From Streptomyces sp. NBC_01571 (GTDB lineage Bacteria > Actinomycetota > Actinomycetes > Streptomycetales > Streptomycetaceae), in assembly GCF_026339875.1 (NCBI RefSeq), contig NZ_JAPEPZ010000005.1, positions 25,635 through 89,634 on the forward strand: a DNA stretch of 64,000 nucleotides, in the 5' to 3' direction. Position 1 is the first letter of the stretch. Each line of letters begins with the position of its first letter. Under the pieces are notes generated by a model, which saw only the letters and a program-made list of their open reading frames with translations, had not been told where the DNA came from and ran no database searches. Of the stretch, positions 35,018-64,000 are shown piece by piece. The position numbers and the translations under genes were made by a program.

Positions 35018-36388
35018 TCAACGTGGCCCAGTTGCTCCACGGGGGCGCATTGGTGCTGTCCGTTGTACGGGGGGCGGATATGCGCGGCGAAGGTCGGCAA
35101 GTAGCTCCTCGATTAGTGCCTCCTCGTAGGCGGGTCGGCCGGATACGCGCATGGCGGCGGCGAGCGCGGGGTCCCACGGGGTCTCGCCGAGACAGTGGGC
35201 GTCCAGGACGCCTGGTTCGAAGGGTGCTGGGTGCAGGCTGGCGGTGTAGTCGTCGGCTGTCATGCGCCACACCACGGCTTGGGGAACGGTGGCGAGGACA
35301 GCGCGTACGAGAGCGAGACCCGCGCAGTCGAAGTCGGCCCGCACGGCGATGCGCCACCCCGCCGCCGCCAGGCGTGCGACGGCGTCCAGTTCCGTACGCG
35401 ATGGCGTCCCCACCGTGCACAGCAGCCGTACGGTGCCCGGGGCGCCGTTCAGGGCCGCTGCGGCGACCGAGGGGTTCTCGGTGAGGAAGACCCACCGGTC
35501 TTCGCTGTGCCGGGGGGCGGGCCAGACGGCGCGGTGCAGCACCCACGGGATGAGGAAGTTGGGCTGACCGGGGGGGATGTGCCAGCCGGTGGGATGGACG
35601 CCCAGGGTGAGCAGTCCGCCGGTGAAGGTGTCGAGGTCGACGCCGAGCCGGTCCCAGGCCTCCCGGACCGATGTGCTGGCCCCGGCGTCGGCTCGGGCCG
35701 CGGCGGCTTCGGCGAGGACGAGCGCCGCCAGTTCGGTGCCGGCATCCAGGGCGTGGGGGTTGCCAGCGGCCGCGTGCGCCAGGAGGCGTCGGTCCGCGCG
35801 TGCCGAGGCGGGCAACTGGTGCAGGACGGCGAAGGCGGTTGTCAACAGCCGTTCGGGGTTTGGGTGCTGCAGGAGGCGGGCGAGGCTGCCGCGGCGGCGC
35901 AGGATGTCCCAGCCGGTGTCCTCCGGCCGCAACGGCGCGGCGGGGGGCAGGGCGCGCGCCAGACGGCTGCGCAGGTGCTGCAGGGTGGTGAGGCGGGCGG
36001 TGAGCCGGGCCTTGTCGGCGACGCGGTCGGCCAGGGGTCTGCCGAGCGCGTGGGCGGCTACCGCGCCTGGCGTCAGGTGCGGTCCCCGGCGCCGCAGAGC
36101 CTGAGTGAAGCGTTGCAGGTCGATGCGGTGGGTGCGGCCGGCGGCCAGCGGACGCGGGGCCAGCAGGCCGATGACGGCGGCGCGCTGGGCGGAGGCATCC
36201 GGCGGGATGATCGTGATCGTGCGGCTGTCCATGGCCGCGTCCCCGCGCTGGTCGGCTCGCAGGGCGATCTGCTCCCACAGCCAGCGCACGTCGGGGGAGA
36301 GCAGAGTGGCCAGATCAGCATTCCGGCATGCCCCGTTGTGGCAGAGCTGCGCGGGGCAGTCGGCCCGGTCGCTGGCAGTGGGGCTCAT
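35018..36388 (-). CDS. jetD: Wadjet JetD, Toprim-type nuclease subunit (DUF3323-DUF2399)
   Basis: A 456-residue protein of the TIGR02679 type. The C-terminal DUF2399 region is a Toprim fold: VFLTENPSVAAAAL supplies the Glu and AVRADFDCAGLALVRAVL the DxD. In characterised Wadjet, JetD is the endonuclease that cuts DNA once the JetABC motor has extruded a circular molecule. The N-terminal part (DUF3323-like) includes RRGPHLTPGAVAAHALGR. The ATG lies within the stop of jetC (ATGA). It is the last gene of the operon, and all expected catalytic residues are present. Confidence 0.85.
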   Translation of the reverse strand: MSPTASDRADCPAQLCHNGACRNADLATLLSPDVRWLWEQIALRADQRGDAAMDSRTITIIPPDASAQRAAVIGLLAPRPLAAGRTHRIDLQRFTQALRRRGPHLTPGAVAAHALGRPLADRVADKARLTARLTTLQHLRSRLARALPPAAPLRPEDTGWDILRRRGSLARLLQHPNPERLLTTAFAVLHQLPASARADRRLLAHAAAGNPHALDAGTELAALVLAEAAAARADAGASTSVREAWDRLGVDLDTFTGGLLTLGVHPTGWHIPPGQPNFLIPWVLHRAVWPAPRHSEDRWVFLTENPSVAAAALNGAPGTVRLLCTVGTPSRTELDAVARLAAAGWRIAVRADFDCAGLALVRAVLATVPQAVVWRMTADDYTASLHPAPFEPGVLDAHCLGETPWDPALAAAMRVSGRPAYEEALIEELLADLRRAYPPPVQRTAPMRPRGATGPR

Positions 36389-39300: not shown

Positions 39301-40545
39301 CGGGGCCTGCTCGACGCGCCGCATCCTGACCGGTGAGGCCACCACGCCGGGCGCGCCCGCTTCCGCGCAGGCGTGCGCCACGCTCTCCACCACCTCGCGC
39401 ACACCGTCCACCGCCACCTCCAGACGGGTGGCGGCTGCCCCCGCTGCCGAGCAGTGAGCGTCCAGCAATGCCTCGCTCTGCTGGTGCCGCGCTTCGCTTG
39501 CCTCGGCCTTCTCGCGGGCACGGGCCACATCGCTGGAAGCCGCATCCCGTTCCAGGGCCTGTGCGCGCGAGGCCGTCTCCCGCTCCGCCACGTCGAGTTG
39601 GTCGACGAGCGCCGCCAGTTCGGTACGCGTGCGCCCCGAAGCCTCGGCGTGCGCGTTCGCGTCCTTGATCTCACCCTCGGCCTGCAGAAGGACCGCTGTG
39701 TGGGCCAGGGCGTCCTCCGTCTCGCTCAGTACCGTGCGTGCGCAGGCGTACAGCCAGGCCGAAGAGAGGTCTTGGAGGAGGGCAGAGGTCTTCCCAGCCC
39801 GCACGTACCGTGCGCGGGTGGCCTCGGCGGCGGCCAGCGCCTGCCGGGTCACACGCAGGACCTCGGGGCTGACGCGCGGCAGGACCTCGTGCAGTTCCTG
39901 CTCGGCCTGAAGCGGCGTCAGGTCGGCGAGCAGACCAGGGTTGCGCACCTTCTTGATACGCCGGGCGATCTGCTGGAGCCGGGCGGGAGCACAGCCGAAG
40001 ACACGGTCGGCGAGATCGGCCACGTAGCCGTCCAGGCTGTCGAAGACCGTGCCGCCGTGCCCGGTGACGTACTGCGTGAACGCCTCGATGCTGAGCGTGC
40101 TCAGATCGTCGACGTCCGAACCCGGTACGAGGGGCATCCGGAAACCAGCCCGCGTCACAGACGGGCTGGTGCCCTGCGCGTAGTCCAGACGCAGGCCGTA
40201 GTGCACGATGCCGGTGCCGGTATCCGGACCTGCCTGGGGCGGGCGAAAACTCAGCCACACATAGCCGACCCGGCGCCGTCCCGAACTGCCGTATCTCATC
40301 AGGGACTCCAGCGTGGTGCTCCGGTTCTTCCCCGAGCTGAGGTGCTGCACCGTGGTGGGGTCCAGCAGGTGAGGGCACAGTTTTTCCAGCAGGGTGGTCT
40401 TGCCCGTGCCGTTCGGACCGGTCACCAGGATCCGGCCCGAGGGACAGTCGAGGACCTCCCGGGGGAACTGCCCGACGTTCTCCACCCCCGCGCCGGCCAG
40501 ACACCACCGGTCGGACCACCGGGCAGGGATACTCAACCGGCTCAT
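36385..40545 (-). CDS. jetC: Wadjet JetC, SMC/SbcC-like ATPase
   Basis: A 1386-residue ABC ATPase of the TIGR02680 type. Walker A is LVTGPNGTGKTTLLEKL (residues 41-57). About 900 residues of Ala/Glu/Arg-rich coiled coil follow with a hinge-like middle. Near the C-terminus come GVTVSKGESRLIVLAPMLAA (signature region), Walker B ARLCALDEVPGDVDDQG and the switch His in STSHNWDG. It is the motor that extrudes DNA loops. The start overlaps the jetB stop by four bases (ATGA). Length and motifs indicate an intact protein. Confidence 0.9.
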   Translation of the reverse strand: MSRLSIPARWSDRWCLAGAGVENVGQFPREVLDCPSGRILVTGPNGTGKTTLLEKLCPHLLDPTTVQHLSSGKNRSTTLESLMRYGSSGRRRVGYVWLSFRPPQAGPDTGTGIVHYGLRLDYAQGTSPSVTRAGFRMPLVPGSDVDDLSTLSIEAFTQYVTGHGGTVFDSLDGYVADLADRVFGCAPARLQQIARRIKKVRNPGLLADLTPLQAEQELHEVLPRVSPEVLRVTRQALAAAEATRARYVRAGKTSALLQDLSSAWLYACARTVLSETEDALAHTAVLLQAEGEIKDANAHAEASGRTRTELAALVDQLDVAERETASRAQALERDAASSDVARAREKAEASEARHQQSEALLDAHCSAAGAAATRLEVAVDGVREVVESVAHACAEAGAPGVVASPVRMRRVEQAPVTIGTRSFGPLTEITAETDPSSVEESVAALADAERRLRQRGKNASVLMLAHEAVEELQQDGKEARVRADSVAGSADRAITRHRAAHDDALAKVAALSEAVQAWTVSAQSAVRIPLFDLAAIGAQARAWREDAEFTAAVHEAAALGKRVSAGAAGAISRGRQRGEHYRQLAAVTRKDAALAAEQARLWASGKLPSLPGPAWLETADESDCFALAVDWRPGALPAGPARNAAEAAMAGAGLLSAQLSPRGLRGGEGWQVEPRGPELPVEDSLASILTPVPGHRLSNVAEAVLKHIAYAPTADGNETGTRPELLIGADGTYRCGPLLARPPHAVHGAPVAQHIGSEARHAAALRRVAELRRESERLELRAARLSRTAARFADYAELLKQLADRFPNEQSRDAMQAETIRAECAVSEQEARNHACAEDRLAQEKEAQARKALMQWRQQAAGYGLPDSLPLVREECEASGRRADLFDRAAQQMRGASNLLDDVRDAAQHAADTHDQAQLTGRAALDSFGQLCDARAALEACRQRSGMDELTLVQEAVAARQAHTDVRERLRRVRKELEEAASETAAAGQAQKEAARRLQESRPRAEASVAAVRHCLTLDGLAEALSATGGDDAADHGGVASWLKELRARLLSVPQPPAGIEACGDALRLHLAAAPDEDWHLGHGLALERMPSHRLSLAGRRMSPHAAAGMAAERRAEAERAYSQADENALENFILGQIPAAVGTAWVDLQDWVGEINEQMKLAAASSGVGVQISLVLRKDLPPSLATIHHLTCEKGDAERTPEEQRRIGQELLAVMRLGETGADTTEPRSQADRLAEAIDIRNWIKVQYKITRSGTTKQETWGARGVTVSKGESRLIVLAPMLAALAAEYRDLPPHAARLCALDEVPGDVDDQGRDGIAAYLESLDLDLMSTSHNWDGSPGAWDGIDIFELEKAPNDTVIAFPVRAYSPLLQQATGHPATSPAGTS

Positions 40546-41789
40546 GGCGTCTCCGTTCCTGATACGGCACTGTTCAGGGAGTTAGCGGGCTGCGTGTCGT
40601 GAGCGATGACCGTCCAGCGCGCCGCCGCGGGGGACAGCCACCACCAGTCCTCATAGCTCGTGGCCACACGCAGCAGGTCGGCCTCTTCGAGCAGCGTCCG
40701 GATCTGACCGGCCAGTTGCTCGGGTCGCTGCCGGTACTCTCCCCGCCACCTCGTGTGCCGTACCGCCAGCTCACCCAGGCGGCGCACCACCGAGGAAGCG
40801 GCGGCGCCGTACCAGCCCTCGCCCGGTGCGTCCGCCCCGCCCCGCTCGCCCTCACCGGTCAGATAGTCGATGAGGAGCAGGGTGGCGTGCCGGACGGTGC
40901 CGCAGCCGCCCTGCTGGCGGTGAGGGAAACGGAACGATCCCAGCCCCCGGGCATCGCAGATCTCCTCGGGCATCACCAGCGCCGCGCCTTCCAGCCGGTG
41001 CTCCAGATGCAGTCCCAACGCCTGCGCCACCCCGGACCCTTCGCGGGCCAGAGCGGTGCTGAACCACTGCCGCTCCGCGTCGTCCAGGTCGCAGACGTGA
41101 ACGACGGCCCGGTCGGCGAGCATGCCGCACACCCGAACCGCCTCGTCGTCGGGACGCACCAGCGAATTCAGCCAACCCTGTGGATCCTGGCCAGGGTCAC
41201 AGGCCCACTGCCCCTCATCGTCCACCGGCACGTTGCGCGGCAACAGGTGCAGCAGACGGGCATGGTGGATCTGCAGCAGCACAGGCGGATCCTGCGCGCC
41301 GTCCATCAGCTCGTCGACGCGGCCCTCGAGTTCGCTCAGCACTCCGCGCTCACAGAGCATGCGCAGACCGGCCACCAGCGCACGCAACTCGGGCAGCGAC
41401 TGCGTCACCGGGATCTCCGCCTCCGCCGCGGCCGCGCGCACGGCGCCCACCAGTTGCCCCAGTGGGACTTTGGGATGCAGGCCTTCCAGCACGGCGACCG
41501 TCAGCCAGAACCACACTCCCTGCGGGGCATCGCCGCCGGACATCAGCGCGACGGGTTCCACGGGGACGTGCACGCGCACCAGGTCGGGCTCGACGGTCAG
41601 CGCACAGCCCACTGCCTCCAGCAATGCCCGCACCGCCGCGGCATGTCGGTGCACCGCTTCGATGAGCTCGTCGTCGCGCCCACCCACCAGCCAGGTCTGC
41701 GCCCGAAGCCGTCGCACCAGCGCTGCGACAGCGTCCTGCTCGTCTTCGACCAACGGCCGGCCCGGCATCCCACCGAGGACACCCCTCAC
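40542..41789 (-). CDS. jetB: Wadjet JetB, KITE-like subunit (DUF2398)
   Basis: A 415-residue protein of the TIGR02678 type. RRLRAQTWLVGGRDDELIEA begins the domain, which continues with winged-helix-like segments (LRMLCERGVLSELEGRVDEL) and ends ATSYEDWWWLSPAAARWTVI. JetB proteins dimerise on the kleisin JetA in the MukBEF-like complex. GTG 41789 is chosen over the longer frame because it overlaps the jetA stop by four bases (GTGA), like the other junctions in this operon. Confidence 0.85.
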   Translation of the reverse strand: MRGVLGGMPGRPLVEDEQDAVAALVRRLRAQTWLVGGRDDELIEAVHRHAAAVRALLEAVGCALTVEPDLVRVHVPVEPVALMSGGDAPQGVWFWLTVAVLEGLHPKVPLGQLVGAVRAAAAEAEIPVTQSLPELRALVAGLRMLCERGVLSELEGRVDELMDGAQDPPVLLQIHHARLLHLLPRNVPVDDEGQWACDPGQDPQGWLNSLVRPDDEAVRVCGMLADRAVVHVCDLDDAERQWFSTALAREGSGVAQALGLHLEHRLEGAALVMPEEICDARGLGSFRFPHRQQGGCGTVRHATLLLIDYLTGEGERGGADAPGEGWYGAAASSVVRRLGELAVRHTRWRGEYRQRPEQLAGQIRTLLEEADLLRVATSYEDWWWLSPAAARWTVIAHDTQPANSLNSAVSGTETP

Positions 41790-43345
41790 CGGGATGCCTC
41801 GACCAGGACATCCACAGGTGCCGGCGCGGCCCTGCGGCCCGCAGGGACTCTCCCTGCCATGACAGCAGCCGGGGAATGGAACAGCACCTTCCGTCCTCGC
41901 ACCAGTACCGACCACCGCACTCCGTCCACGCGCCCCACCACTCCGGGAGCGGCCACGAGCGTGCACCCGACTCCCTGTGCCTGTCCGACGCGCCCCACCG
42001 TCACTTCCGGCGCCCGCACGGCGGCCATGACCGCCCTGAGCGCCAGCCGGCAGGCGTCTTCTGACAACGGGACCGCTCCTGCCAGCACTTCCGCTACCGC
42101 GGCACTGTGCCGGGCCTCGCGCTCCGCCCGCCGCAGGACCGCCTCGCTCTCGTCACGCGGCTTGCGCCCGGTCACAGCCCCTCGGGCAGAGCTCTGCCCC
42201 GTGGCACGCAGCATCGCCAGCGCCGCGACCCGGGGGCCCTCGTGCCAGGACACGACCTCGCCCATGTCGGACTCCGCGATCGTGTGCAGCTTCGTCCACG
42301 GCCGGTCAGCCAGTGCCTGGCGCAGCACCGCCCGGCCGTGGTGCGGATCCTGACAGGCCACGGCAAGCGACAGGGCCCGCGCCCGCAGCGTCGCAGGCCC
42401 GCCCACGCTCTGGTGCCGCAGGAGATTGGCGTGGAGCATCGGGATCGCCCGCACCAACTGGAGCCCGAAGCGCGCTGCCTTCCCTGTGCTGGGTGAGAAC
42501 CACCCGAGGAGATGGTCCCAGTCCTCCGCCCGCAGCCCCCGTGCCGGCGCCAGCACCCCGCGAGCCACCAGCGCCCCGGCCGGAGACTGCGCGCGTCGCG
42601 CCGCCGCGAGCTCGCCGAACCGCGGGCGCAGCCGGCGAAGCTCCGCGTGGATCCGGATGACGGCCGTATTCAGGTGGACCACCACATGCGTGGCGTACTC
42701 CAGGATCATCTGCTTCAGCTCACCCGTCGCCTCCAGGTCCAGATCGAACCGGTCGGCCAACTGCGCCAGCATGTCCGCCTGGCCCACCAGCGCCCCGTCG
42801 AGATGGTCGTGCTCGACGAACACCTGCCCCGCCAGCTCCGACAGGGCGGCGTCCGACGCGTGATCGTCGTGCATGGCGGCCAGCGCCTGGTGAATCCTGG
42901 ACAGCCCGTCCATCGGGATCTCCCGAGGCACGAGACCGTCGCCGGCCAGCTGCGTCCACAGTCGCTGCATCTGCCGTCCCCGCGGTGTGGCGCTGTAACG
43001 CCAGCGCGCCCCGTTCAGCTCGTGCCAGCGCTCGACTTCCGAGTCCGGCCGGCCCGAAGCGGCCAGAAACGTATCGCTCAGCGCGCGCAGCCGTGCGGTC
43101 ACCGTCGCGAGCGGAAGTTCCGCCCCCTGCTCGGCGAGCGCCGCGCGCACCTCCGCGGGGGTCAGATGGTCGACCGACTGCTCCAGTACATCCATGATCG
43201 CCAGGTACTGCCCGCGCAGGGGGCTGAGCACGTACCCAACCACCCGTGCGGGATCGCCAGCGGCCATTCCCGCGTTGGCCCAGCCCTCCACCACCCAGTC
43301 CGGCGCGCTGCCACCTGCCAGATCTTCTACCGCCGCGATGCTCAC
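41786..43345 (-). CDS. jetA: Wadjet JetA, kleisin-like subunit (DUF2397)
   Basis: A 519-residue protein of the TIGR02677 type, the first gene of the operon. GTG 43345 is preceded by GGGAGGTC. The N-terminus includes VVGYVLSPLRGQYLAIMDVL and a winged helix (VRAALAEQGAELPLATVTAR). The middle helical part has QMILEYATHVVVHLNTAVIR, and the C-terminus DVLVEASR. JetA bridges JetC heads and binds JetB. Four overlapping junctions make a single translationally coupled unit, as needed for a fixed-stoichiometry complex. Confidence 0.85.
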   Translation of the reverse strand: MSIAAVEDLAGGSAPDWVVEGWANAGMAAGDPARVVGYVLSPLRGQYLAIMDVLEQSVDHLTPAEVRAALAEQGAELPLATVTARLRALSDTFLAASGRPDSEVERWHELNGARWRYSATPRGRQMQRLWTQLAGDGLVPREIPMDGLSRIHQALAAMHDDHASDAALSELAGQVFVEHDHLDGALVGQADMLAQLADRFDLDLEATGELKQMILEYATHVVVHLNTAVIRIHAELRRLRPRFGELAAARRAQSPAGALVARGVLAPARGLRAEDWDHLLGWFSPSTGKAARFGLQLVRAIPMLHANLLRHQSVGGPATLRARALSLAVACQDPHHGRAVLRQALADRPWTKLHTIAESDMGEVVSWHEGPRVAALAMLRATGQSSARGAVTGRKPRDESEAVLRRAEREARHSAAVAEVLAGAVPLSEDACRLALRAVMAAVRAPEVTVGRVGQAQGVGCTLVAAPGVVGRVDGVRWSVLVRGRKVLFHSPAAVMAGRVPAGRRAAPAPVDVLVEASR

Positions 43346-43364
43346 AAGACCTCCCGACCGGTGA

Positions 43365-43381
43365 CCTATATGTCGGATAGG
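43365..43381 (-). promoter_or_regulatory. Short inverted repeat upstream of jetA
   Basis: CCTAT and ATAGG arms (43365-43369, 43377-43381) flank ATGTCGG about 20 bp before the jetA start. The local AT-richness around 43370-43400 is unusual here and fits a promoter or operator, but I cannot assign -10/-35 boxes securely. Confidence 0.3.
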
Positions 43382-44367
43382 AGAGTAAATGCGAGCACTG
43401 ACAATGAGGCAAGATGCCCTCATGTACCCCTTGGCGTCCGGCACGCGCTAACCAGGGGAGGCGCGCCGGGGCCAGGACTCCCCGGCGGCACGTCGTTCGT
43501 GAAGTCGCCGACCGCGCGCCGAGGCCAGGCCGGGGGACGGGTCAGCCGCGGGGCGCAGCATCGTCGCCCGGCGGCCGTCAGCGAGAGGAGCGCCGAAAGC
43601 CGCAGAGAGATCCTCCCGAATTGCCGAGACGTCACGAGTAGAACGCCGGCTCCGCCGTCCGGCGGTTCGCCGAGCGGATAGGCCGCGAGCCAACGAGGGG
43701 GTCGTGTCCCCATCACGGTCTGGCGCCTCCGCTTCGGAGGTCTCCGGTGCGTGCTGATGCGGGCCGACTGGCGATCACCGCTGGTCCTGGCTCGGTGAAG
43801 TCCAACGGGGCTTTCGTCGAGGGCGATTCGCACCGCGACCTGGGAATTCCGCCAGCTTGATCGGCTAGACCACGACGGGGGACACAACCGGTCAGCGCTT
43901 CCTCATCTTCCGCGCGAACCGCGGGGTCGAGCCTGTCGAGGAAGTCACTGCTGCCGTCGCAAAGCCGTCGAACATGCTCAGCATGGCGCCATCCGTCGTG
44001 TTGGGCTGCCTGGTACGGCCCGTGTGGGCGGAACGGGTTGAGTCTCCTCATCGGCCGTTCCTCGTGGCTCGACCGGGCAGGCTGGCAGGCCTGCATGGCG
44101 GCCGCGAATGCCCACATCGTTCAGCACAAAGAAGGCAGGCGGGTATGAACCGCGGCGATCGGCTTGCCGTGGTCCTGGACGTCTTCGTCGCGGACGACGC
44201 ATACCGCGCCGTGATGGGGGGCGTGTATCGGCCTGGCCTGGCCGAGCGCGCGCGTACCGAAGGGCCGATGGGTGCTCCACTGGCGAGGTCACGGCTGGAT
44301 CAACTTCGACACGGCGGGGAGCTGCTCGCGGCATCCTGCGATCTCATACACGACAAGGGGGGACGCG
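43382..44367. other. Mostly non-coding stretch, possible small ORFs
   Basis: About 985 bp between jetA and the 82-aa membrane protein gene. The best candidates are a minus-strand frame from ATG 44051 (starts MRRLNPFRPHGPYQAAQHDG, GAGGAA upstream), which loses natural composition near its end at 43713, and a plus-strand frame from ATG 44144 (NRGDRLAVVLDVFVADDAYR). Neither is convincing. Both could be gene debris. Confidence 0.35.
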
Positions 44368-46524: not shown

Positions 46525-47443
46525 TCAGCGGTTCACCTTGAAGCGGCGGAACATCTCTGGAAGGAACTGTTGCAGAAGTGCTTTCGCATCCTCCGGTCGT
46601 GCGAGTTCGTCGTGGCCGAAGCGGAACACTTCGTAGTCTCTGAGCTTGAGGTCGCGGTCTGCGGCGACCATCTCTGCGTACTTGCCGGTGTCAGGTGTCC
46701 GGCCACGATCACGGGTGTAGTGCTGTGAGCCGTCGACTTCTATGACTACTCGCTGCCCGTGTGGCAGCAGTAGGAGGAAATCCATCCGTGAGCGCAGCAA
46801 TGCTTCTGGTCCGCGCTCGCGGACGGTTTTGTGGTCCCAGTGGAGCCACACCTCGGGCAGGAGGGCCGGATCGTCGGGAGAGGGACCGAGGAGGTGGTGG
46901 TATGCGGAGAAGAAGTTCCTCTGGCCTGGAGAGTTCTCGGGCAGGCTCTTGAGGAGTCGCTTGTAGAGGTCTCCCCTGAAGTCGGTGTCGCTGCTCGTCG
47001 GGTGGGTGTCCTGCCACCAGGCGTGCAGGTGATGCCATCGCAGGCCCTCGGCGGGGACGTACCGGTCGTAGACGAGGGTGTCGTCCGCGTGTCCCCCGAC
47101 GATCTCGATGTCGTTGTCTACGGATGATCGAAAGCGGATGTCTGGTTTGACGCGAGAAGCGAAGATGATGTTCTTCGGACGCCGGGTACCGTGCCACCGT
47201 GTCGACACCATGGTGAAGAGGGGATAGCCGCCATCGCTGCCGGTCTGCCGCAACTCGATCCCCGCGGGGCGAAGATGCGTATTGATCAGGGTGGCTGTTG
47301 CCTCTTGTGCGTGCTCATCCAGGAGGACGTCTGCTGACACCAGGCCCTCCAGGAAGCGGGCGAATCTGGCGTCCCCTGCCTCGAACACCCGGAGATTCGC
47401 GAAGAGCTCCTCTGTCGTCCAGTCCCCACGGTTGCGGAAAACA
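46525..47443 (-). pseudogene. 3' part of AbiJ/DUF559-like gene
   Basis: From the ISL3 junction the minus strand encodes RNRGDWTTEELFANLRVFEA and LINTHLRPAGIELRQTGSDG, resembling the AbiJ N-terminal domain 3. It ends with a Vsr/DUF559-like nuclease core (HGQRVVIEVDGSQHY, then YEVFRFGHDEL) before a stop at 46525. Joined to the 48925-49459 segment after removing the IS and one target copy, the frame is restored (RHVF followed by RNRGDW). The open frame now starts inside the IS (TTG or ATG codons there), so an N-terminally altered protein might still be made. Confidence 0.65.
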
Positions 47444-48924
47444 GGGTCTTCGAAGTTAGGCGGGGTTGAGGTGTCCGCGGGCTCGGCGGGTGGTGACGCA
47501 GCGTGTGCGTAGGCGCTGGCTGTCGGCATTGCGGAAGCCGAATGCGTTGCGGGCGACGAGCTTGATGACGCGGTTGATGCCTTCGCTCTTGGCGTTGCTG
47601 TGGCCGGTGTCGATGAACCCGGCGATCTCGGGCCACCAGCGGTCGACGGTGGTGGCGAGGGTGCAGGCTTCGGGGATGTCTGAGTCCGCGCACCAGGTGA
47701 GGAACTTCCATCGGGCGTGGCCTACTTCTTCGCGGTCGGCGCCGGTTCGGGCCAGGGCGAGGAGGGTGCGCAGGCTCTCCTTGGCGATCCAGGCGGTCAG
47801 CAGCGTCTGCCCGATCGGCCCCTCGTCCAGCAGCGCGTTCCACATCGTGGCGAACTGCTGGTCGGTGAGGTCCTCACGGTTGCGCAGCAGCCGTCGACGG
47901 GCCTTCCATTCCGGGTCGGTGGCGCGTCCACGCCGGCCCCGGATCTCGGCGGTGGTGCGACGCCGTACAGCAGAGAGCATCTTGTTCGCGAGCTGGACGA
48001 TGTGGAAGTGGTCAACGACCACGATGGCATCGGGCAGGCCGGTGCGGATCGCGGCCCGGTAGGTGGCTGACATGTCGATGGCGACGTAGCGGATGTTCTT
48101 TCTCCACTCCAAAGGGGTGGTGGACAGCCAGGCCAGGACGTCGGCGGCGGCACGGCCCTCGACCTGCCCGAGCAGGCCACCGGCCCCGAGCGCGTCGACG
48201 AACCCGGTGTGCCACCTCTCGCGCACCAGGTGCCACTTGCCGGTGTCCGCATCCTGTTCCCAGCGCGGCCGTCCGCGCCGGGTCTCGTCGACGCCCAGCA
48301 CCTCCACTTCCGGCAGCGGCGCCTCGGTGACCTCGCGGGCGGCCGCGCGGAAGGCGTCCATCACCGTCGGCCAGGACACGTGCAGGTCACGGGCGGCCTG
48401 GACCACGGTGGAAGCAGCATCCCGCACCCGCAGGGCGGCAGCCCGGCGCAGCCGGCCGGTGATCCGGGCCCCGGCCGGTATCTGCCGAACCTGCTCGGTG
48501 AACGACTTCCGCTCGCATCCGGACTCCCGGCAATACCAACGCCGCTTGCACCACACGAACTCCAATCCCCGTTCTCCGTAAGGAAGATCACGTGGACGGG
48601 TGTACACGAGGCCCTTCACATGTGACGCGAACACGCCGCAGGAGGGACAGGCCCGGGCGGCTTCGTCCGCTGTGGTCAGATGCACCCGCCGGGTGCCGTC
48701 CATCAGCCGCTCAACGCTCTCGACGGCAAGGCCGTCCAAGTCGAGCAGCACCGCCGTATCGTTGTCCAAGCCCGTGGTTTCTGGTGATCAAACTGCCGGA
48801 GAACAGTCATGATCGCCGATGACCACGGACGCCCTGCACCCACGAGCCGACCACCCCCACGCTTACCCTCCGTGAGAACCCCGGAGGACGAAGGCTCACC
48901 CACCCCGCCTAACTTCGAAGACCC
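47444..48924 (-). mobile_element. ISL3-family element, copy 1 (1481 bp)
   Basis: Terminal inverted repeats begin GGGTCTTCGAAGTTAGGCGG on both ends. The 8-bp target duplication GGAAAACA is at 47436-47443 and 48925-48932, the length expected for ISL3. One transposase gene fills it. Its encoded protein is identical to that of copy 2 at 57413-58893, and the copies point in opposite directions. Confidence 0.88.
47456..48769 (-). CDS. ISL3-family transposase, copy 1
   Basis: 437 residues from a TTG at 48769. The N-terminal zinc finger (CPSCGVFASHVK, then CKRRWYCRESGCERKSF) and HTH (ASTVVQAARDLHVSWPTVMD) are followed by the DDE core: Asp in VEVLGVDETRRGRPRW, Asp in RYVAIDMSATYRAAI and Glu in GHSNAKSEGINRVIK. 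It appears complete and active-looking. An upstream ATG in another frame (at 48811 on this copy) does not reach it without a frameshift. Confidence 0.88.
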   Translation of the reverse strand: MDNDTAVLLDLDGLAVESVERLMDGTRRVHLTTADEAARACPSCGVFASHVKGLVYTRPRDLPYGERGLEFVWCKRRWYCRESGCERKSFTEQVRQIPAGARITGRLRRAAALRVRDAASTVVQAARDLHVSWPTVMDAFRAAAREVTEAPLPEVEVLGVDETRRGRPRWEQDADTGKWHLVRERWHTGFVDALGAGGLLGQVEGRAAADVLAWLSTTPLEWRKNIRYVAIDMSATYRAAIRTGLPDAIVVVDHFHIVQLANKMLSAVRRRTTAEIRGRRGRATDPEWKARRRLLRNREDLTDQQFATMWNALLDEGPIGQTLLTAWIAKESLRTLLALARTGADREEVGHARWKFLTWCADSDIPEACTLATTVDRWWPEIAGFIDTGHSNAKSEGINRVIKLVARNAFGFRNADSQRLRTRCVTTRRARGHLNPA

Positions 48925-49459
48925 GGAAAACATGGCGCTCGACCCTGTCCCTCAGCGTCACCGCCGGCCGAAATCCGTTCACCAGCGAACTGAAATCGAT
49001 GCCCGGCTCCTCAGCGAGCCAGAGACGGTCGAGCAATTCCATGAAGGGGTCCTGGTGCTGCGCCAGCTCCGAGAGGGTGAGGGCGCGCGCCAGTTCGCGG
49101 CGGATCTTCTTGGGTATCTCGGGTGGGTCGTTCTCTTCCCACAGCAGGTCCTCGAGGTGGAAGCGGACCGAGGGACTCAAGTGGAGACTTCTGCGGTCCA
49201 TGGCACGTTGTGCGAGCTGAGGTAGCTCACTATCGGGAACCTGGCGGAAGCTCTCTTCGATCCGCTCACGCTTGTTCCCAGCACTATCAGGCACCTGAGG
49301 CATGGCCAGCTGTCCGAAGGCCGCTGTGAGTTCCTTGTGGGTCAGCGAGGCCAGGTGGGCAACGGCTTCACCGACTGACGAGCGCAGCGCCGAACGATCT
49401 CTGTCGACCATTGGCAGATCGTCGCAGAGGTCCTGCAAAGTCGACAGGGGGCGAAGCAC
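48925..49459 (-). pseudogene. 5' part of AbiJ/DUF559-like gene
   Basis: It starts at GTG 49459 or ATG 49411. VGEAVAHLASLTHKELTAAF and LPQLAQRAMDRRSLHLSPSV are helical, and FHLEDLLWEENDPPEIPKKI leads to the junction LRDRVERHVF. The ISL3 element interrupts the gene here after the GGAAAACA target (48925-48932). Together with 46525-47443 the intact gene would encode about 470 residues with a DUF559-type nuclease end. Confidence 0.65.
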
Positions 49460-51389: not shown

Positions 51390-51568
51390 CGGTGCGCCGT
51401 AGTGTCGTTGCCTCCGCGCTGCGCGCCCAACCGGAGGGAGCACAGCACCTCTTCGAACTGGCGGATGACCGCCAGGTCGACCAGGCCATCCGAAGCGCTG
51501 TCTACAGGACCTGAGCGGTCAGTGCAGGGGCATTGATCAATCACACCACGAGTCATTACGGTGTGTGA

Positions 51569-52258
51569 GTGGATGATGACGAGGGGGATCGCTTCTCCGA
51601 CGCGATTCGGCTGCTGCTGCTCATCGCAGCGGTGTCCGATCCGTTGAACGAAGCAGAGCAGCAGGCCGCGCCGAAGGATGCGGTGGCTGTGCTGCGCGCT
51701 GAGGGCCGGCTGCAGAAGCTGGACTTTTGGCTGCGCAACCCGGATTACATGGCCGATGAGCTTCTCAACGACTACGAACGTGAGCGCGAGAAGGAAGCCA
51801 TCAACCTGGAACTGGCCGGCCGCATCCTGGATTCGGACGAGCCGGAGATCTGCGCCATCCCAATGCTGCGCTATCTGTTCGGGGCGTTCGAGTACATCGA
51901 CCAGGCGATGAGCGTCCTGGCCGCCCCGCGGCTGGTCCTCGTTGTGCCGCGACGCGCCACCGGCCGGGTCCTCCAGGACAACTACTACCTCACGGCAAAG
52001 GGCCGCGATCTCGCCGAGCAGGCTACGGAGCAGTTCTCTGTCCTGGCCTGGTACACCGAGCGCGCTCGCCTTGTCCGGGCGTTGGCCGAAGCCACCGGGC
52101 ACTCCGCTCTGGCACTGCGCAAACGGCAGTACCTGCAGCGCGACTATGCCCAGACCCCGCTGAACGAGGTCATCCCGTCGATTGCCGACCGGGCCCGCGC
52201 GCGCCTCGCCCGGTTGCGTGCCGAAGTAGAGCAGGCAGAACAGGGGGATGCCGCGTGA
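51569..52258 (+). CDS. Small component of ABC-ATPase/nuclease operon
   Basis: 229 residues from GTG 51569. The helical N-terminus AIRLLLLIAAVSDPLNEAEQ, then LRAEGRLQKLDFWLRNPDYM and a winged-helix-like middle (MLRYLFGAFEYIDQAMSVLA, with a YYLTAKGRDLAEQA hairpin) resemble the small middle component of ABC-three-component systems. The C-terminus is a basic coiled coil. The stop overlaps the ATPase start by four bases (GTGA), so the two proteins are probably made in fixed ratio. Confidence 0.6.
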   Translation: MDDDEGDRFSDAIRLLLLIAAVSDPLNEAEQQAAPKDAVAVLRAEGRLQKLDFWLRNPDYMADELLNDYEREREKEAINLELAGRILDSDEPEICAIPMLRYLFGAFEYIDQAMSVLAAPRLVLVVPRRATGRVLQDNYYLTAKGRDLAEQATEQFSVLAWYTERARLVRALAEATGHSALALRKRQYLQRDYAQTPLNEVIPSIADRARARLARLRAEVEQAEQGDAA

Positions 52259-54342
52259 CCACAGAGCCTTTGCCGGTCCCGTCCGACGGCGAGCTGTACG
52301 AGCAGATCGCCGCCCGAGTGCCGTCCGCTGACGTGAAGAGAGTCCGCGAGGTCCTGTCGGCCCACGGCATCCAGCTGACCAGCCCGTTGCCCGCGCGTCG
52401 GCAACTGGTCGTGCACCGGCTGTACTGCGAAGGCACCAAAACCGATACGGACGACAACGACGGCGCCTTCACCAGCGACATGACGCTGGGGCCAGGACCG
52501 TGGGCGATCGCCAGCACCCTGAACAACGCCGGCAAGTCGAGCCTTCTGTGGGCGCTGAGCTATGCCCTGCGCGGAGACGGGTTCGGCGCCTTCAAGCGAC
52601 CAGAGACGGTGGGCTGGTTCTCCTATGTGCGCGCGGATGTTGAGGTCGCCGGCGTCGCTGCCTCCATCCGCCTGACCTTCGACAAACCTGACCGTCCCAG
52701 CTGCCGGCTACTGAGCGCCGACGCCCTCGAGCACCTCACGGCGCTTATCGGTTCCCAGGAGACCGGTCCTGGGGTACGCGTGGTAGCCAGCGCTGAACCC
52801 GACGGCGTCAAGGCGCTCATCGACCGATTCATGCTCGACCGTCTGGGGCTGCGGCCGCTGCCGCTCTGGACGGCCGAGGCGGGCGCTCCAAAGGATGCGG
52901 ACGGCAACCGCGACAGCAGGGAGGACATTCACGGCTGGGCGAGCTATTTCTATGCCATTGCATTGAACGCAGGCAATTCCAGCATCTTGCTGGGCCCGAC
53001 AGGCCACAACCAGCTGCCAGTAAAGCTGATGCAGCTCTTCCTCGACGTGCCCTACGCGTCCGAATTGACCCAGGTCACCACAGCTCGCAAGAAGGACACC
53101 CAGGAGGGCAACCGGGTCCAGCGCCGGGCTCGCGAGGACGCGCAGGCCCGCGAGCAGCAGACTGAGCCGCTGCGCCATGCACTCAGGGCCGCCGAGGACA
53201 AGGTGACGGCGCTGGAAACGGACCAGCCCGACCTGACCGGCCTGCTCGCCGACGTCGATGCCGCTGCTCGCCAGGTCGCCCGCGACCAGGCTGGGCTCCA
53301 GGCGGCTGAAGAAGGCCACGCCGCGGCGCGTAAGGCCCGCCTGAAGGACGAGAAGGCTTTCCGCCGGGCCGAGCAAAGCAGCGCAGCGCGGCTCCTGCTT
53401 GGGGCGCTTGAGCCGGAGTCCTGCCCGCGTTGCGATCACGAGATCGACGATGCCCGCCGTACCGCAGAAGAGAGCGACCACCGGTGCTCGGTGTGCGCAA
53501 GCCCCCTGCCGGAGGTTCAGGACGACCCGGAGACGCGCGCGGCGCTGCGCCTTCGGCTGGAGGAGCGTGTAAACGCCTCCCGCGCAGCCGAGGACACTGC
53601 CCGGCAGAGCGTGGCGAGGAACACGGCGGCCTGCGAGAGCAGCCGCGCCGCCTATGACCTGGTGAATGCCCGCCTTTCCGCGGCACGCTCCGGCAGCTGG
53701 TACACCCGTCTCGAATCCGCACGGGAGTCCGTCTACCAACTGCGTGGAGCCCTGGCCGTCGCCACCGGCAACGGGACGGGCCTGCCGGAGGTGGTAGGCG
53801 ACTACGTCACTGCGACAACGAGCTCCTCGGATACCGAGGACGGCTCTGCCGACAGCGACACAATTCTGGAGGCGGCCGCCTCTGCGTTGACACAGGTCGT
53901 CGCCGACCACAGCAAGGCCCTGTTCACGGAACTGAACGGTGAGATCGTCCGCATCGCCCACGACCTCGGTGTGGCCAACCTGACCAGCGTCGACCTCAAC
54001 CTCGCGGGACACCTCAACGCCCGCAAGACCGGCAAAAAGCACCCGTTCAGCGCGTTCAGCCCAACCGACCGACTACGCATGCGGATCGCGGCCATCATCG
54101 GAATGATCAAAGTGGGTCGCAAGCGCGGCATCATGTCCCACCCCGGTCTGCTGCTCATCGACGCGCCCACAGCCGAAGAGCTCTCCCACGACAACGCCCG
54201 CCAATGCATCAAGACGCTCTACGAGACCGCGGCAGACGACCCCGGCATCCAGATCGTGATCACGTCGATCGACGACGCCGTTTGGGAGTTCTACCCCGAG
54301 GACCGTACCGTGACCGGCCTCGGCAAGCGCCAGCTCTTCTAG
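52255..54342 (+). CDS. SMC/Rad50-like ABC ATPase
   Basis: 695 residues. The P-loop is STLNNAGKSSLLWAL (residues 87-101); its first Gly is replaced by Ser but GKSS is kept. A coiled coil (residues about 275-500) is broken by a four-Cys zinc site: C390-x2-C393 and C411-x2-C414, resembling a hinge zinc ribbon rather than a CxxC hook. The C-terminus has PFSAFSPTDRLRMRIAAIIG as signature region, then GLLLIDAPTAEELSHDNARQ (Walker B with Ala in place of the usual Glu neighbour) and IQIVITSIDD. The pattern fits the ATPase of ABC-three-component conflict systems. It is followed by the nuclease-like gene after 34 bp. Confidence 0.75.
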   Translation: MTTEPLPVPSDGELYEQIAARVPSADVKRVREVLSAHGIQLTSPLPARRQLVVHRLYCEGTKTDTDDNDGAFTSDMTLGPGPWAIASTLNNAGKSSLLWALSYALRGDGFGAFKRPETVGWFSYVRADVEVAGVAASIRLTFDKPDRPSCRLLSADALEHLTALIGSQETGPGVRVVASAEPDGVKALIDRFMLDRLGLRPLPLWTAEAGAPKDADGNRDSREDIHGWASYFYAIALNAGNSSILLGPTGHNQLPVKLMQLFLDVPYASELTQVTTARKKDTQEGNRVQRRAREDAQAREQQTEPLRHALRAAEDKVTALETDQPDLTGLLADVDAAARQVARDQAGLQAAEEGHAAARKARLKDEKAFRRAEQSSAARLLLGALEPESCPRCDHEIDDARRTAEESDHRCSVCASPLPEVQDDPETRAALRLRLEERVNASRAAEDTARQSVARNTAACESSRAAYDLVNARLSAARSGSWYTRLESARESVYQLRGALAVATGNGTGLPEVVGDYVTATTSSSDTEDGSADSDTILEAAASALTQVVADHSKALFTELNGEIVRIAHDLGVANLTSVDLNLAGHLNARKTGKKHPFSAFSPTDRLRMRIAAIIGMIKVGRKRGIMSHPGLLLIDAPTAEELSHDNARQCIKTLYETAADDPGIQIVITSIDDAVWEFYPEDRTVTGLGKRQLF

Positions 54343-54376
54343 ACCAGGCCATCAGGAGTATCCAGCGACGGGAGAG

Positions 54377-56440
54377 GTGGAGGGCATCGTGCAGTTCATC
54401 GATGAGCGCCTCACCCAGTGGGCCGCCCAGGCTTCAGGCCCTCAGTTGCGTGCCGGGCCGACGGTGGAGGACCTCGGAAGCCTCGACGTTGTCCTCGCCG
54501 CCGCGGACCACCTCAGCGAAGGACCCTTTCTTCATCACCTCATCCAGGCGACCGCGCACCACCTCGAGGCTTTCGGTACCGAAGCGTGCAAGCCGCTCTA
54601 CGACGCCGTCCTGGCAGGCCTCAGGACCAACAGCAACCATGCTGCCTTCGCCAGTGCCACCGACGTCCTCGCCAGCCGCCCTGCCCTGGCACGTGAACTT
54701 GGCCTGCCGCTGACCCGCGTGCTACTCGGCCGCCTCCAAGAAGCCCAGGATGCCGGTGACGACCTGGCCGTGGCACTCATAGGAGTGGAAGCCGCCGACT
54801 GTCTTGTCCAGCTCACCCTGGCCGGCGTCACCAAGGCCGCGCGTCTCCTGGGCGCCATGGACGAAGCAACCGAGGACCCGGCCACCCTTCCCGAGGCCAT
54901 GGCCACCCGCCTCCCCCGCCTTCTTGGCGTCCTCGACGCACACCATCCCGGCGCCGGCCTGCGTGACGCCCTCGAACGCTGCCTGATGCTCGACCACACA
55001 TGCCGGGACGCCACCTTCGAACTCGCTCTCGGCGACCTGCGCCAGGCCCTGGAACAGGACCAGTACGACCCCATGGCCGAGCAACTCCGCAAGACTCAGG
55101 ACCGGCTGGCCGAGCTGATCACTCTCGACCCCGACCGCCTGGACGCCCAGCTCTACCACTGCGCAATCGAAGCTGTCCTTGGCCTGTCGGCCCCCGATGC
55201 ACCCACGCGCGTCCACGCAGCCGCAGCCACCCTGCGCGAGACCCTGCACCGTTACCGGGACTACCGCTACCGCGCACGCACACCAGCCTGGGCACGCCCT
55301 CGCCAGAACGACGTGTTCGCCTGGTCGGAACTCACCGTCCTCCTGGACGGCGCGGCTGCGCACCTTGCACCCGACGACCCCTGGTACGGCGAGGGGCACG
55401 ACATTCTCACGGCGCTGCTCCGCGTATACACCGCGCACAACACGGTCGCCGTACTCACGGACGCCCCTGCGGCCGCCGCCGTGGAGACCCTGGTGGTGCC
55501 CGTCATCGAAGACACCTTCCTCCAGCACGAGCACCGGCAGCGATTTCTCCAGCACGCTGTGGCCCACGACGAGGAGCTCCGCGACGACCCCGCGGCCCAG
55601 CGGCTCCAAGCCGCCCTCCTCCACCGCACGAAGAGCACCGAGAACGCCACCAGTCAGCGGGCGGGTGATCCGGGAAAAGCACGACGCTGGCAGCGGCTGG
55701 CACATCAACTCTCCGAGGACTTCACTGCGTTCGTTGAGCAGACGCCCGAGCATGTCCTTGACCGCTTGGAGCTTGGGCTGCGCACACACGAAGACGTCCG
55801 CGAGGCCATCGCCGACCCCAAGTACGGTCGTCTCAAAGCCCGGCTCCTGCGCCAGCTGAAGAATTCCCCCGACTGGCTTCCCGGCGTCTCAGACGAGTTC
55901 ACAACGCTCCTTGAGACCACGATCCGCTACGCCTACCTGTGCTACGACATCGGCCGGAAGATGGGAGGCTCCTACACCGAGTACCTTCGAACGCGCGACA
56001 AGGACGGCAAGAAGCAAAAAGTAGACGAAGCTCTGTTCCACCAGCACTACCGAGAAGTGCTGCAGTTCTCGGCCCTCTTCGGAGTCGTCAACTCGGAGGT
56101 CATCGACAAGGCGGGCGGAAGAACAGACATCCTCGTATCCTTCGGCGCTGTTCAATTCAACGTCGAATGCAAGATCGAAGAAGACGATGCCAGCGAAACC
56201 GCCCTGCGTGAATACGTCGCGCAGGCCACCGAATACCAGAACACCAATGCCGGATTCGCCATCCTGCTCGCCCTCGACAAAACGGTCGGAGCTGAGGGCG
56301 CGGCCAACCTCTTCTCCAGCATCTGGATCGAACCCGTCCAGCGCGCCGGCGAATCCGATCCATGTCTCGTCGTCATCATCCGCGTCCCAGGAGGCCGCGA
56401 GAACCCCAACCTCTTGCGCCCGGCCCGGCGCCCTACCTAG
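54377..56440 (+). CDS. Large protein with C-terminal PD-(D/E)XK nuclease core
   Basis: 687 residues from GTG 54377 (a second GTG at 54389 is possible). About 500 residues of alpha-helical scaffold carry no family I recognise. The last 130 hold GGRTDILVSFGAVQFNVECK, with Asp584 and Glu597-x-Lys599 in the PD-(D/E)XK arrangement. A helix with Gln follows (LREYVAQATEYQNTNAGFAI) and a strand AILLALDKT, as in restriction-like nucleases. It is the likely effector of the operon, cutting DNA under control of the ATPase. Confidence 0.65.
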   Translation: MEGIVQFIDERLTQWAAQASGPQLRAGPTVEDLGSLDVVLAAADHLSEGPFLHHLIQATAHHLEAFGTEACKPLYDAVLAGLRTNSNHAAFASATDVLASRPALARELGLPLTRVLLGRLQEAQDAGDDLAVALIGVEAADCLVQLTLAGVTKAARLLGAMDEATEDPATLPEAMATRLPRLLGVLDAHHPGAGLRDALERCLMLDHTCRDATFELALGDLRQALEQDQYDPMAEQLRKTQDRLAELITLDPDRLDAQLYHCAIEAVLGLSAPDAPTRVHAAAATLRETLHRYRDYRYRARTPAWARPRQNDVFAWSELTVLLDGAAAHLAPDDPWYGEGHDILTALLRVYTAHNTVAVLTDAPAAAAVETLVVPVIEDTFLQHEHRQRFLQHAVAHDEELRDDPAAQRLQAALLHRTKSTENATSQRAGDPGKARRWQRLAHQLSEDFTAFVEQTPEHVLDRLELGLRTHEDVREAIADPKYGRLKARLLRQLKNSPDWLPGVSDEFTTLLETTIRYAYLCYDIGRKMGGSYTEYLRTRDKDGKKQKVDEALFHQHYREVLQFSALFGVVNSEVIDKAGGRTDILVSFGAVQFNVECKIEEDDASETALREYVAQATEYQNTNAGFAILLALDKTVGAEGAANLFSSIWIEPVQRAGESDPCLVVIIRVPGGRENPNLLRPARRPT

Positions 56441-56959: not shown

Positions 56960-57412
56960 CAGGGCGGCTGCAAGTTCCGGGGTGGTGAGGGTTGGCCGGG
57001 CTGTCGTCGGTTGGGGTGGATAGCAGGGCAGGCACGGGTTTCGTGATCATTGTGGTTCCTACGCCCGATGATCACGAGGTGGCCCGTGCCTGCTGCCATA
57101 TCTTCTCCGGTCCCTGCCGTGCTGATGAGGCTGGGTCCGCTGGACGCCGGTCAGGTCGCCGATCTGCGTTCCTACCTCGATGCGGTGCCCGATCCGCGCT
57201 CGCGGCGGGGCCGTTGGTACTCACTGACCGCGATCTTGCTGGTGTGCGCCTGTGCGGCCGTGTCGGGAGCGAGGAGCATCGAGGAACTCGCCGAGTGGGG
57301 CCAGCGCGCCTCGAACGCACTCCTGGTAGTGATCGGGATCCGGCGTCACCTGCTCGGCTGGCGACGCACTCCGTCACCGGCCACGATCGGCCGGGTGCTG
57401 GGGACCGTTGAC

Positions 57413-58893
57413 GGGTCTTCGAAGTTAGGCGGGGTGGGTGAGCCTTCGTCCTCCGGGGTTCTCACGGAGGGTAAGCGTGGGGGTGGTCGGCTCGTGGGTG
57501 CAGGGCGTCCGTGGTCATCGGCGATCATGACTGTTCTCCGGCAGTTTGATCACCAGAAACCACGGGCTTGGACAACGATACGGCGGTGCTGCTCGACTTG
57601 GACGGCCTTGCCGTCGAGAGCGTTGAGCGGCTGATGGACGGCACCCGGCGGGTGCATCTGACCACAGCGGACGAAGCCGCCCGGGCCTGTCCCTCCTGCG
57701 GCGTGTTCGCGTCACATGTGAAGGGCCTCGTGTACACCCGTCCACGTGATCTTCCTTACGGAGAACGGGGATTGGAGTTCGTGTGGTGCAAGCGGCGTTG
57801 GTATTGCCGGGAGTCCGGATGCGAGCGGAAGTCGTTCACCGAGCAGGTTCGGCAGATACCGGCCGGGGCCCGGATCACCGGCCGGCTGCGCCGGGCTGCC
57901 GCCCTGCGGGTGCGGGATGCTGCTTCCACCGTGGTCCAGGCCGCCCGTGACCTGCACGTGTCCTGGCCGACGGTGATGGACGCCTTCCGCGCGGCCGCCC
58001 GCGAGGTCACCGAGGCGCCGCTGCCGGAAGTGGAGGTGCTGGGCGTCGACGAGACCCGGCGCGGACGGCCGCGCTGGGAACAGGATGCGGACACCGGCAA
58101 GTGGCACCTGGTGCGCGAGAGGTGGCACACCGGGTTCGTCGACGCGCTCGGGGCCGGTGGCCTGCTCGGGCAGGTCGAGGGCCGTGCCGCCGCCGACGTC
58201 CTGGCCTGGCTGTCCACCACCCCTTTGGAGTGGAGAAAGAACATCCGCTACGTCGCCATCGACATGTCAGCCACCTACCGGGCCGCGATCCGCACCGGCC
58301 TGCCCGATGCCATCGTGGTCGTTGACCACTTCCACATCGTCCAGCTCGCGAACAAGATGCTCTCTGCTGTACGGCGTCGCACCACCGCCGAGATCCGGGG
58401 CCGGCGTGGACGCGCCACCGACCCGGAATGGAAGGCCCGTCGACGGCTGCTGCGCAACCGTGAGGACCTCACCGACCAGCAGTTCGCCACGATGTGGAAC
58501 GCGCTGCTGGACGAGGGGCCGATCGGGCAGACGCTGCTGACCGCCTGGATCGCCAAGGAGAGCCTGCGCACCCTCCTCGCCCTGGCCCGAACCGGCGCCG
58601 ACCGCGAAGAAGTAGGCCACGCCCGATGGAAGTTCCTCACCTGGTGCGCGGACTCAGACATCCCCGAAGCCTGCACCCTCGCCACCACCGTCGACCGCTG
58701 GTGGCCCGAGATCGCCGGGTTCATCGACACCGGCCACAGCAACGCCAAGAGCGAAGGCATCAACCGCGTCATCAAGCTCGTCGCCCGCAACGCATTCGGC
58801 TTCCGCAATGCCGACAGCCAGCGCCTACGCACACGCTGCGTCACCACCCGCCGAGCCCGCGGACACCTCAACCCCGCCTAACTTCGAAGACCC
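57413..58893 (+). mobile_element. ISL3-family element, copy 2 (1481 bp)
   Basis: Same length and ends as copy 1, in opposite orientation. The 8-bp target duplication CCGTTGAC is at 57405-57412 and 58894-58901, inside the partial ISAs1 copy. Each copy therefore has its own target duplication, so they transposed independently. Confidence 0.88.
57568..58881 (+). CDS. ISL3-family transposase, copy 2
   Basis: Identical in protein sequence to the transposase at 47456-48769, with the same zinc finger, HTH and DDE residues. Antisense open frames are also identical in length and content between the copies, which implies identical or nearly identical DNA and recent movement. Confidence 0.88.
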   Translation: MDNDTAVLLDLDGLAVESVERLMDGTRRVHLTTADEAARACPSCGVFASHVKGLVYTRPRDLPYGERGLEFVWCKRRWYCRESGCERKSFTEQVRQIPAGARITGRLRRAAALRVRDAASTVVQAARDLHVSWPTVMDAFRAAAREVTEAPLPEVEVLGVDETRRGRPRWEQDADTGKWHLVRERWHTGFVDALGAGGLLGQVEGRAAADVLAWLSTTPLEWRKNIRYVAIDMSATYRAAIRTGLPDAIVVVDHFHIVQLANKMLSAVRRRTTAEIRGRRGRATDPEWKARRRLLRNREDLTDQQFATMWNALLDEGPIGQTLLTAWIAKESLRTLLALARTGADREEVGHARWKFLTWCADSDIPEACTLATTVDRWWPEIAGFIDTGHSNAKSEGINRVIKLVARNAFGFRNADSQRLRTRCVTTRRARGHLNPA

Positions 58894-63574: not shown

Positions 63575-63968
63575 GTGTGGGTGCCCGGAGGGTGCCACAC
63601 CCTCGCAGCCGTTCTCTCACGTCTCGTCACTCTCTTTGCCCTCCGGCCGAGTTGGGCCCGGAGGGGCCAACTCTCCCCGGAATTGCGTGATTTACTGGTC
63701 CCACGAAATTCCGGAGTTCTCTACTCATTTTCGGGTCAGGGAATTCGGAGAATCCCTGACACTCCTTGGAATGGACCGGAGGGACATTCCAGCAACCGGC
63801 ACCCAAAAACCTCCCTGACACTCCGTCAAACCTCACTCTTCGAAACATCAACACCCCACATATACAACGCCTTTCGTGCCGGAGGCACAGGTTTATGAAT
63901 TTCGCCCGGAGGGCGAATTCATAAACCACCCGCCGGAGGCGGAGCATTTCGCGCGGGGACGCGCGAAA
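63575..63968. repeat. Cluster of hairpins with GGA triloops
   Basis: At least seven stem-loops carry C-GGA-G at the turn: 63575-63600 (GTGTGG...CCACAC), 63649-63673 (GAGTTGG...CCAACTC), 63735-63760 (GTCAGGG...CCCTGAC), 63768-63790 (GGAATG...CATTCC), 63876-63888 (GTGCC/GGCAC), 63891-63926 (about 16-bp arms) and 63930-63942 (CCGCC/GGCGG). One more, at 63947-63968 (TTTCGCGC/GCGCGAAA), has a GGGGAC turn. Small G-N-A loops are a feature of folded Streptomyces telomere ends. Confidence 0.6.
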
Positions 63969-64000
63969 CGGAGCGTAGCGGAGTATTCGGCTTCCGGAGG

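Follow-up and report, generated by a model that had tools for sequence, protein, structure and literature searches.

A probable Lamassu-family operon near a telomere-like end in Streptomyces, with variant ATPase motifs and a predicted C-terminal nuclease domain

Lamassu systems are described in one review (PMC10586767) as comprising an SMC-like sensor, LmuB, a small protein, LmuC, which some systems lack, and an effector, LmuA; the same text counts the ABC-three-component (ABC-3C) systems within the Lamassu superfamily. It further describes the Walker B glutamate as generally a glutamine in LmuB, a CPxCG-type zinc motif as present in many, though not all, LmuB homologues, and the usual LmuA as having its effector domain at the N terminus and its docking part at the C terminus. 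Wadjet (JetABCD) appears there as an SMC-type defence against extrachromosomal DNA that is made up of four genes, with JetD as the nuclease. According to Georjon et al. 2023 (PMC10482375), 31% of Streptomyces Lamassu lie in the outer 1% of chromosomes, the same trend is seen on linear plasmids, a location of some copies in terminal inverted repeats is held plausible, and Wadjet is also biased towards the ends of Streptomyces replicons. The subtelomeric occurrence of Lamassu in Streptomyces is already published there and is not new.

The stretch of Streptomyces DNA that we analysed (64,000 nucleotides, hereafter the window) contains an operon of three plus-strand genes at 51569-56440, all with open frames (Table 1). 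The first-pass annotation had described three adjacent genes, with a GTGA overlap between the first two and a 34-bp gap before the third, and the list of open reading frames confirms this arrangement. We found that all three products are matched by PADLOC-DB models: LmuC by PDLC03872 (E 8.5e-76, residues 5-221 of 229), LmuB by PDLC03864 (E 1.9e-174, residues 10-695 of 695) and LmuA by PDLC03853 (E 7.8e-159, residues 8-681 of 687). Because these models match nearly end to end, we conclude that the operon is likely to be a member of the Lamassu family of anti-phage or anti-plasmid systems, with the order lmuC-lmuB-lmuA. The same near full-length matches contradict the earlier claim of an undescribed system; they remove a false "new system" and give a previously unassigned 687-aa protein an identity, LmuA. 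The accompanying comparison with ABC-3C, as an SMC-like ATPase with a small middle component and a nuclease effector, holds, ABC-3C being placed within the Lamassu superfamily in PMC10586767.

Table 1. Coordinates, in the window, of the operon and of the features around it
Feature	Position	Strand	Description
JetA, JetB, JetC, JetD	35018-43444	-	Wadjet operon
AbiJ_NTD3 ORF	46525-47529	-	abortive-infection type
ISL3-family IS left of the operon	47444..48925	-	own 8-bp target duplication GGAAAACA; outside the system
Candidate promoter	51533..51568	+	TTGATC and TACGGT spaced by 18 nt; 6 nt between the latter and GTG 51569
lmuC	51569..52258	+	229 aa, middle component with predicted winged helix
lmuB	52255..54342	+	695 aa, SMC/Rad50-like ATPase; four-Cys zinc site, non-canonical P-loop
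lmuA	54377..56440	+	687 aa, or 683 aa from the probable start GTG 54389; effector
ISL3 copy to the right, identical to the left one and inverted	57412..58893	+	own 8-bp target duplication CCGTTGAC
Telomere-like palindromic terminus	63870..64000		end of the 89,634-bp contig

Like Lamassu, a superfamily that takes in ABC-3C and DdmABC, the locus is a three-gene unit: LmuB is SMC/Rad50-like, carries a zinc motif and lacks the normal Walker B glutamate, LmuC is small, and LmuA is the effector. The gene order, C-B-A, sets the locus apart. An SMC-like sensor, a middle protein and a nuclease effector are also combined in DdmABC (Lamassu-Cap4) of Vibrio cholerae, compared here by its description in PMC10586767. 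Translation of lmuA probably begins not at 54377 but at the GTG at 54389, 12 bp downstream, because GGAGGG lies just 5' of that codon and because 19 of the 21 best matches (of at least 54) in the LmuA protein search are 682-683 aa long. Residue numbers below follow this start, so that D584, E597 and K599 in the 687-aa numbering become D580, E593 and K595.

Scored among about 8,000 best candidates in each of three protein searches, database relatives at E up to 0.001 numbered at least 54 for LmuA (one of them the window's own), at least 68 for LmuB and at least 355 for LmuC, well above what chance would give. Pfam holds models for ABC-3C middle components or C-terminal domains; it returned no match for LmuC or LmuA at E up to 1, and Pfam and NCBIfam together gave nothing for LmuA and sub-threshold matches only for LmuB. 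A phage-borne system was rejected, since a tblastn search with LmuA at E 1e-5 found no match in 50,697 phage records.

The three genes occur together elsewhere. They adjoin in the order C-B-A at every locus where LmuB was matched (32 of 32); this set includes the window's own copy twice, the two ends of one genome and two contigs of one strain, and at one locus (L031) LmuA is split over two frames. LmuB was also found in 37 plasmid records, reduced to 27 by leaving out 10 of other genera and to 24 by leaving out two near-duplicates and one match of 16% coverage, and 21 of these 24 hold the full trio, among them L053, whose LmuB is in two frames; L002 and L003 are counted in both sets. A recognisable LmuA is missing from the other three records (L044, L056 and L062), and in L044 a broken helicase lies alongside. 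On the remaining two, both Streptomyces longwoodensis plasmids, LmuB continues for about 730 residues that have no match to the window LmuA (L056:1355-5395 and L062:1935-6146), a possible LmuB-effector fusion. Two further plasmid stretches, L040, where the match ends at the record end, and L042, have an LmuA match without LmuB; the LmuA-like protein of the latter is encoded on the Rhodococcus opacus B4 plasmid pROB02 (L042:6843-8660), with no LmuB match in the 16.7 kb examined.

The operon ends 7.56 kb from the telomere-like terminus. When the end of the window was used as a blastn query, the best place was at the very end of the record in 9 of 9 matching Streptomyces plasmid records; eight of these match only the terminus itself, the last 17-19% of the query, and one matches 77%. 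Because the matches fall at record ends, the window very likely ends in a telomere. At the other end of the contig, no match to it occurs in the first 20 kb. Telomere-like ends were seen on three contigs of this genome, namely at the end of the window, at G000:C4 169317-169798 and at G000:C3 3-125.

We then counted operon positions in the plasmid records, of which 23 are linear after circular NZ_CP013744 is dropped. The operon lies no more than 30 kb from an end in 17 of the 23, against 5.4 expected under uniform placement (18 of 24 against 5.5 in an earlier record set), and is not terminal in the other six. In genome G151, a single contig of 8,106,388 bp, two lmuB copies sit at the same distance, 37,239 bp, from the two ends (C1 37240-39321 and 8067068-8069149), as they should if each terminal inverted repeat carries one, a location that Georjon et al. 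2023 (PMC10482375) thought plausible. Internal copies were found on the single large contigs of G015, G117 and G151 (its third copy); the G253 copy is 160 kb from an end and that of L038 about 1.6 Mb. As a control, we located JetC of Wadjet in the same way: among 23 records with a JetC match, all four with at least 80% query coverage have it within 30 kb of an end, the 19 low-coverage records standing outside the count. Because this control is also terminal, the end bias is not special to Lamassu.

On several linear plasmids the operon sits beside the terminal HA-domain helicase gene (PF03457); terminal helicases of this kind are called TtrA. Of the 23 linear records, 7 have the two within 300 bp of each other, where 2.2 would be expected (P ~0.0006), and 8 have them within 2 kb, where 3.6 would be expected (P ~0.002), the null being one of our own devising in which end distances are permuted among records, and the helicase intervals being fragment matches merged by eye. 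Tail-to-tail, tandem and divergent orientations all occur. Operon and helicase abut at L043:534-8309 and L041:3922-11347 and in L044, L045, L048, L051, L063, L064 and L065; they also adjoin in G151, with a helicase at both ends, and in G162. On a tree of 29 LmuB sequences (W14, W17 and W23 left out; G015, G117, G132, G151, G162, G181, G253 and the window added), which was built quickly and carries long-branch warnings, nine rows have the helicase trait. It requires 8 changes, every one of them enforced by a well-supported branch, and its clustering does not exceed that of shuffled labels (mean 7.8 changes). Because the trait is scattered over the tree, adjacency to the helicase arose or was lost repeatedly. 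The LmuB sequences of W04 and W05 are nearly identical, and the junction in W05 cuts both genes short. On pFRL3 (L059:1-7369) the gene immediately upstream of lmuC is annotated as a DEAD/DEAH-box helicase; the terminal helicase query is unmatched in that record. We did not find repeated adjacency of operon and helicase on linear plasmids in print, in a mainly open-access literature; the word helicase is absent from the main text of PMC10482375, and an open-access search for Lamassu with telomere gave only the review PMC10586767. The repeated juxtaposition makes the question of Lamassu at Streptomyces telomeres testable.

These positions bear on an alternative reading, in which the operon is a replicon-maintenance or telomere-associated DNA-end complex that was domesticated from Lamassu and processes or guards ends instead of fighting phages. 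The excess of terminal plasmid copies, the equidistant G151 copies and the scattered helicase adjacencies would all fit such a role. We nevertheless consider it unlikely. The operon is dispensable, because only 12 of 295 genomes of the genus carry it (the window's own genome, with one LmuB copy, included); many copies are not terminal; Wadjet JetC is terminal as well; and the helicase is a general telomere gene, found at E 1e-60 in 367 plasmid records as against the 37 with LmuB, and absent from beside the window copy. About as doubtful is the idea, prompted by the position next to the telomere and the repeated neighbourhood of the terminal HA-domain helicase, that this Lamassu subfamily cooperates with the DNA-end machinery at the termini of linear Streptomyces replicons, accepting protein-capped ends as self but treating uncapped or remodelled ones as foreign; if it were true, a linear replicon would carry its own end-discriminating guard.

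The probable Lamassu operon lies, as the first-pass annotation had proposed, in a defence island. A Wadjet operon with four open frames and an AbiJ_NTD3 ORF are close by. Wadjet is likewise an SMC-type defence with an end bias on Streptomyces replicons; it differs in its four genes with a JetD nuclease, and the best JetC match of the window LmuB reaches only E 0.49. The AbiJ_NTD3 ORF lacks the first 57 profile positions and runs, on its 5' side, into an ISL3 element, and the right ISL3 copy is embedded in an apparent older IS, with a 300-nt repeat found at both 56960 and 59029. ISL3 elements generate 8-bp target duplications, and because each copy has its own, the two are independent insertions; a composite transposon of two ISL3 copies around the operon was rejected on the same grounds. 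The added claim that the operon is intact while its neighbours are broken stands for the AbiJ ORF and the older IS at about 56960, each of which adjoins an ISL3 copy, but not for Wadjet.

To compare motifs, we aligned 39 LmuB sequences, the window's and 38 of 68 database matches. Relative to the general layout of P-loop and Walker B motifs, all 39 sequences lack the first P-loop glycine; S87, N90, G93, K94 and S95 are invariant. The altered P-loop is a trait of the whole aligned LmuB subfamily as judged from this alignment, not of the window copy alone, and the lack of the first glycine distinguishes the locus from described Lamassu. The Walker B glutamate is also absent throughout: the residue after the aspartate is alanine in 36 sequences, including the window's, and serine in 3, not the glutamine described in PMC10586767. 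The cysteines of the zinc site, C390-P-R-C393 plus C411/C414, a CPxCG-type motif, are invariant in 39 of 39, so that the four-Cys site and altered P-loop singled out in the first-pass annotation are both conserved. With both the Walker B glutamate and the first glycine of the P-loop missing, LmuB may use ATP weakly. Searched as a single sequence, LmuB matched no solved structure; its profile gave three sub-threshold rows against solved structures, two of them Rad50 at E 0.4.

Another reading is that the operon is what remains of a Lamassu system that has degenerated and lost its function, in a subtelomeric island undergoing decay. The non-canonical P-loop, the missing Walker B glutamate and the IS insertions on both sides might point that way. 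We regard this as very improbable, as the three frames are all open and the odd LmuB residues are not decay, because each loss is common to all the aligned LmuB sequences. The operon is real, intact and of a known kind, with variant details. Besides the PADLOC matches, the constant gene order, the invariant motifs, the predicted nuclease topology of LmuA, the winged-helix neighbours of LmuC and the defence island with Wadjet all favour the Lamassu reading, whereas the reversed LmuA layout, the scarcity of Pfam and NCBIfam matches and the plasmid records lacking LmuA speak against it.

The effector was examined through an alignment of 46 of the 54 LmuA database matches, eight shorter or partial ones being left out, and through an AlphaFold model (mean pLDDT 75.6, low at about 291-480). 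We found that D580, E593, K595 and Q612 are invariant in 46 of 46 sequences and Y616 is present in 45, so that the C-terminal D...E-x-K pattern noticed earlier is conserved too. In the model, a helical scaffold extends to about residue 535 and is followed by a PD-(D/E)XK-like domain at 547-667 (of 683), with the predicted order alpha-beta-beta-beta-alpha-beta and middling confidence (pLDDT block means 55-87). This is the core order in the general layout of PD-(D/E)XK folds, and the motif residues fall on the expected strands, D580 on beta2 and E593/K595 on beta3, with Q612 ending the next helix. The model suggests that the C-terminal domain of LmuA is likely a PD-(D/E)XK-like nuclease. Of the two outcomes that the first-pass annotation named as refuting it, a predicted structure lacking the nuclease fold and homologues that do not occur together, neither was seen. 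Foldseek/VIA rows for the model fall mainly on the helical part, and the nuclease domain alone was not confirmed by them; the full LmuA profile matched no solved structure by sequence, and a profile of the C-terminal part (9 sequences) gave no nuclease, its two rows (E 0.85 and E 1.3) being unrelated. A predicted nuclease that is C-terminal, behind the scaffold, and not N-terminal departs from the usual Lamassu arrangement, and likewise from DdmABC, whose effector domain is at the LmuA N terminus by its description in PMC10586767. These results add detail to a little-described actinomycete Lamassu subtype: a C-terminal nuclease-like domain and the subfamily-wide loss of the P-loop glycine and the Walker B glutamate. 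We give hardly any credence to an undescribed defence system that is merely analogous to ABC-3C/Lamassu, for although Pfam yields nothing over threshold and the domains of LmuA stand in the opposite order to that described in PMC10586767, the near full-length PADLOC matches, at 8.5e-76 or better, refute it as far as catalogue membership is concerned.

For the Lamassu reading we can outline a most likely mechanism, which borrows DNA sensing, complex formation, nuclease release and an abortive outcome from what is described for other Lamassu systems. An LmuB dimer, held by its zinc-binding apex and by ATP that is hydrolysed slowly or not at all, would recognise abnormal DNA, such as ends, hairpins or forks in the DNA of an invading plasmid or phage. 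LmuC, with its winged helix, would bridge DNA, LmuB and LmuA, and the helical scaffold of LmuA would keep its C-terminal PD-(D/E)XK nuclease silent inside the complex. Sensing would free or multimerise the LmuA nuclease, leading to DNA cleavage and to the destruction of the invader or the death of the infected cell.

The predicted model of LmuC is winged-helix-like, and its structural neighbours are winged-helix proteins. An autoregulatory operator for LmuC was considered and rejected, as relatives do not conserve the palindrome CACACC...GGTGTG that spans the start of lmuC. A sigma-70 consensus scan gave 0 sites. Leaderless mRNAs occur in Streptomyces, and the position of the promoter-like element suggests that the lmuC mRNA is leaderless. 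The pattern is not present upstream of lmuC in distant relatives; it recurs, with some bases changed, 5' of lmuC in close ones (for example L002, L011, L025, L026, L038 and L043), and the upstream part kept in these resembles the promoter of a leaderless transcript.
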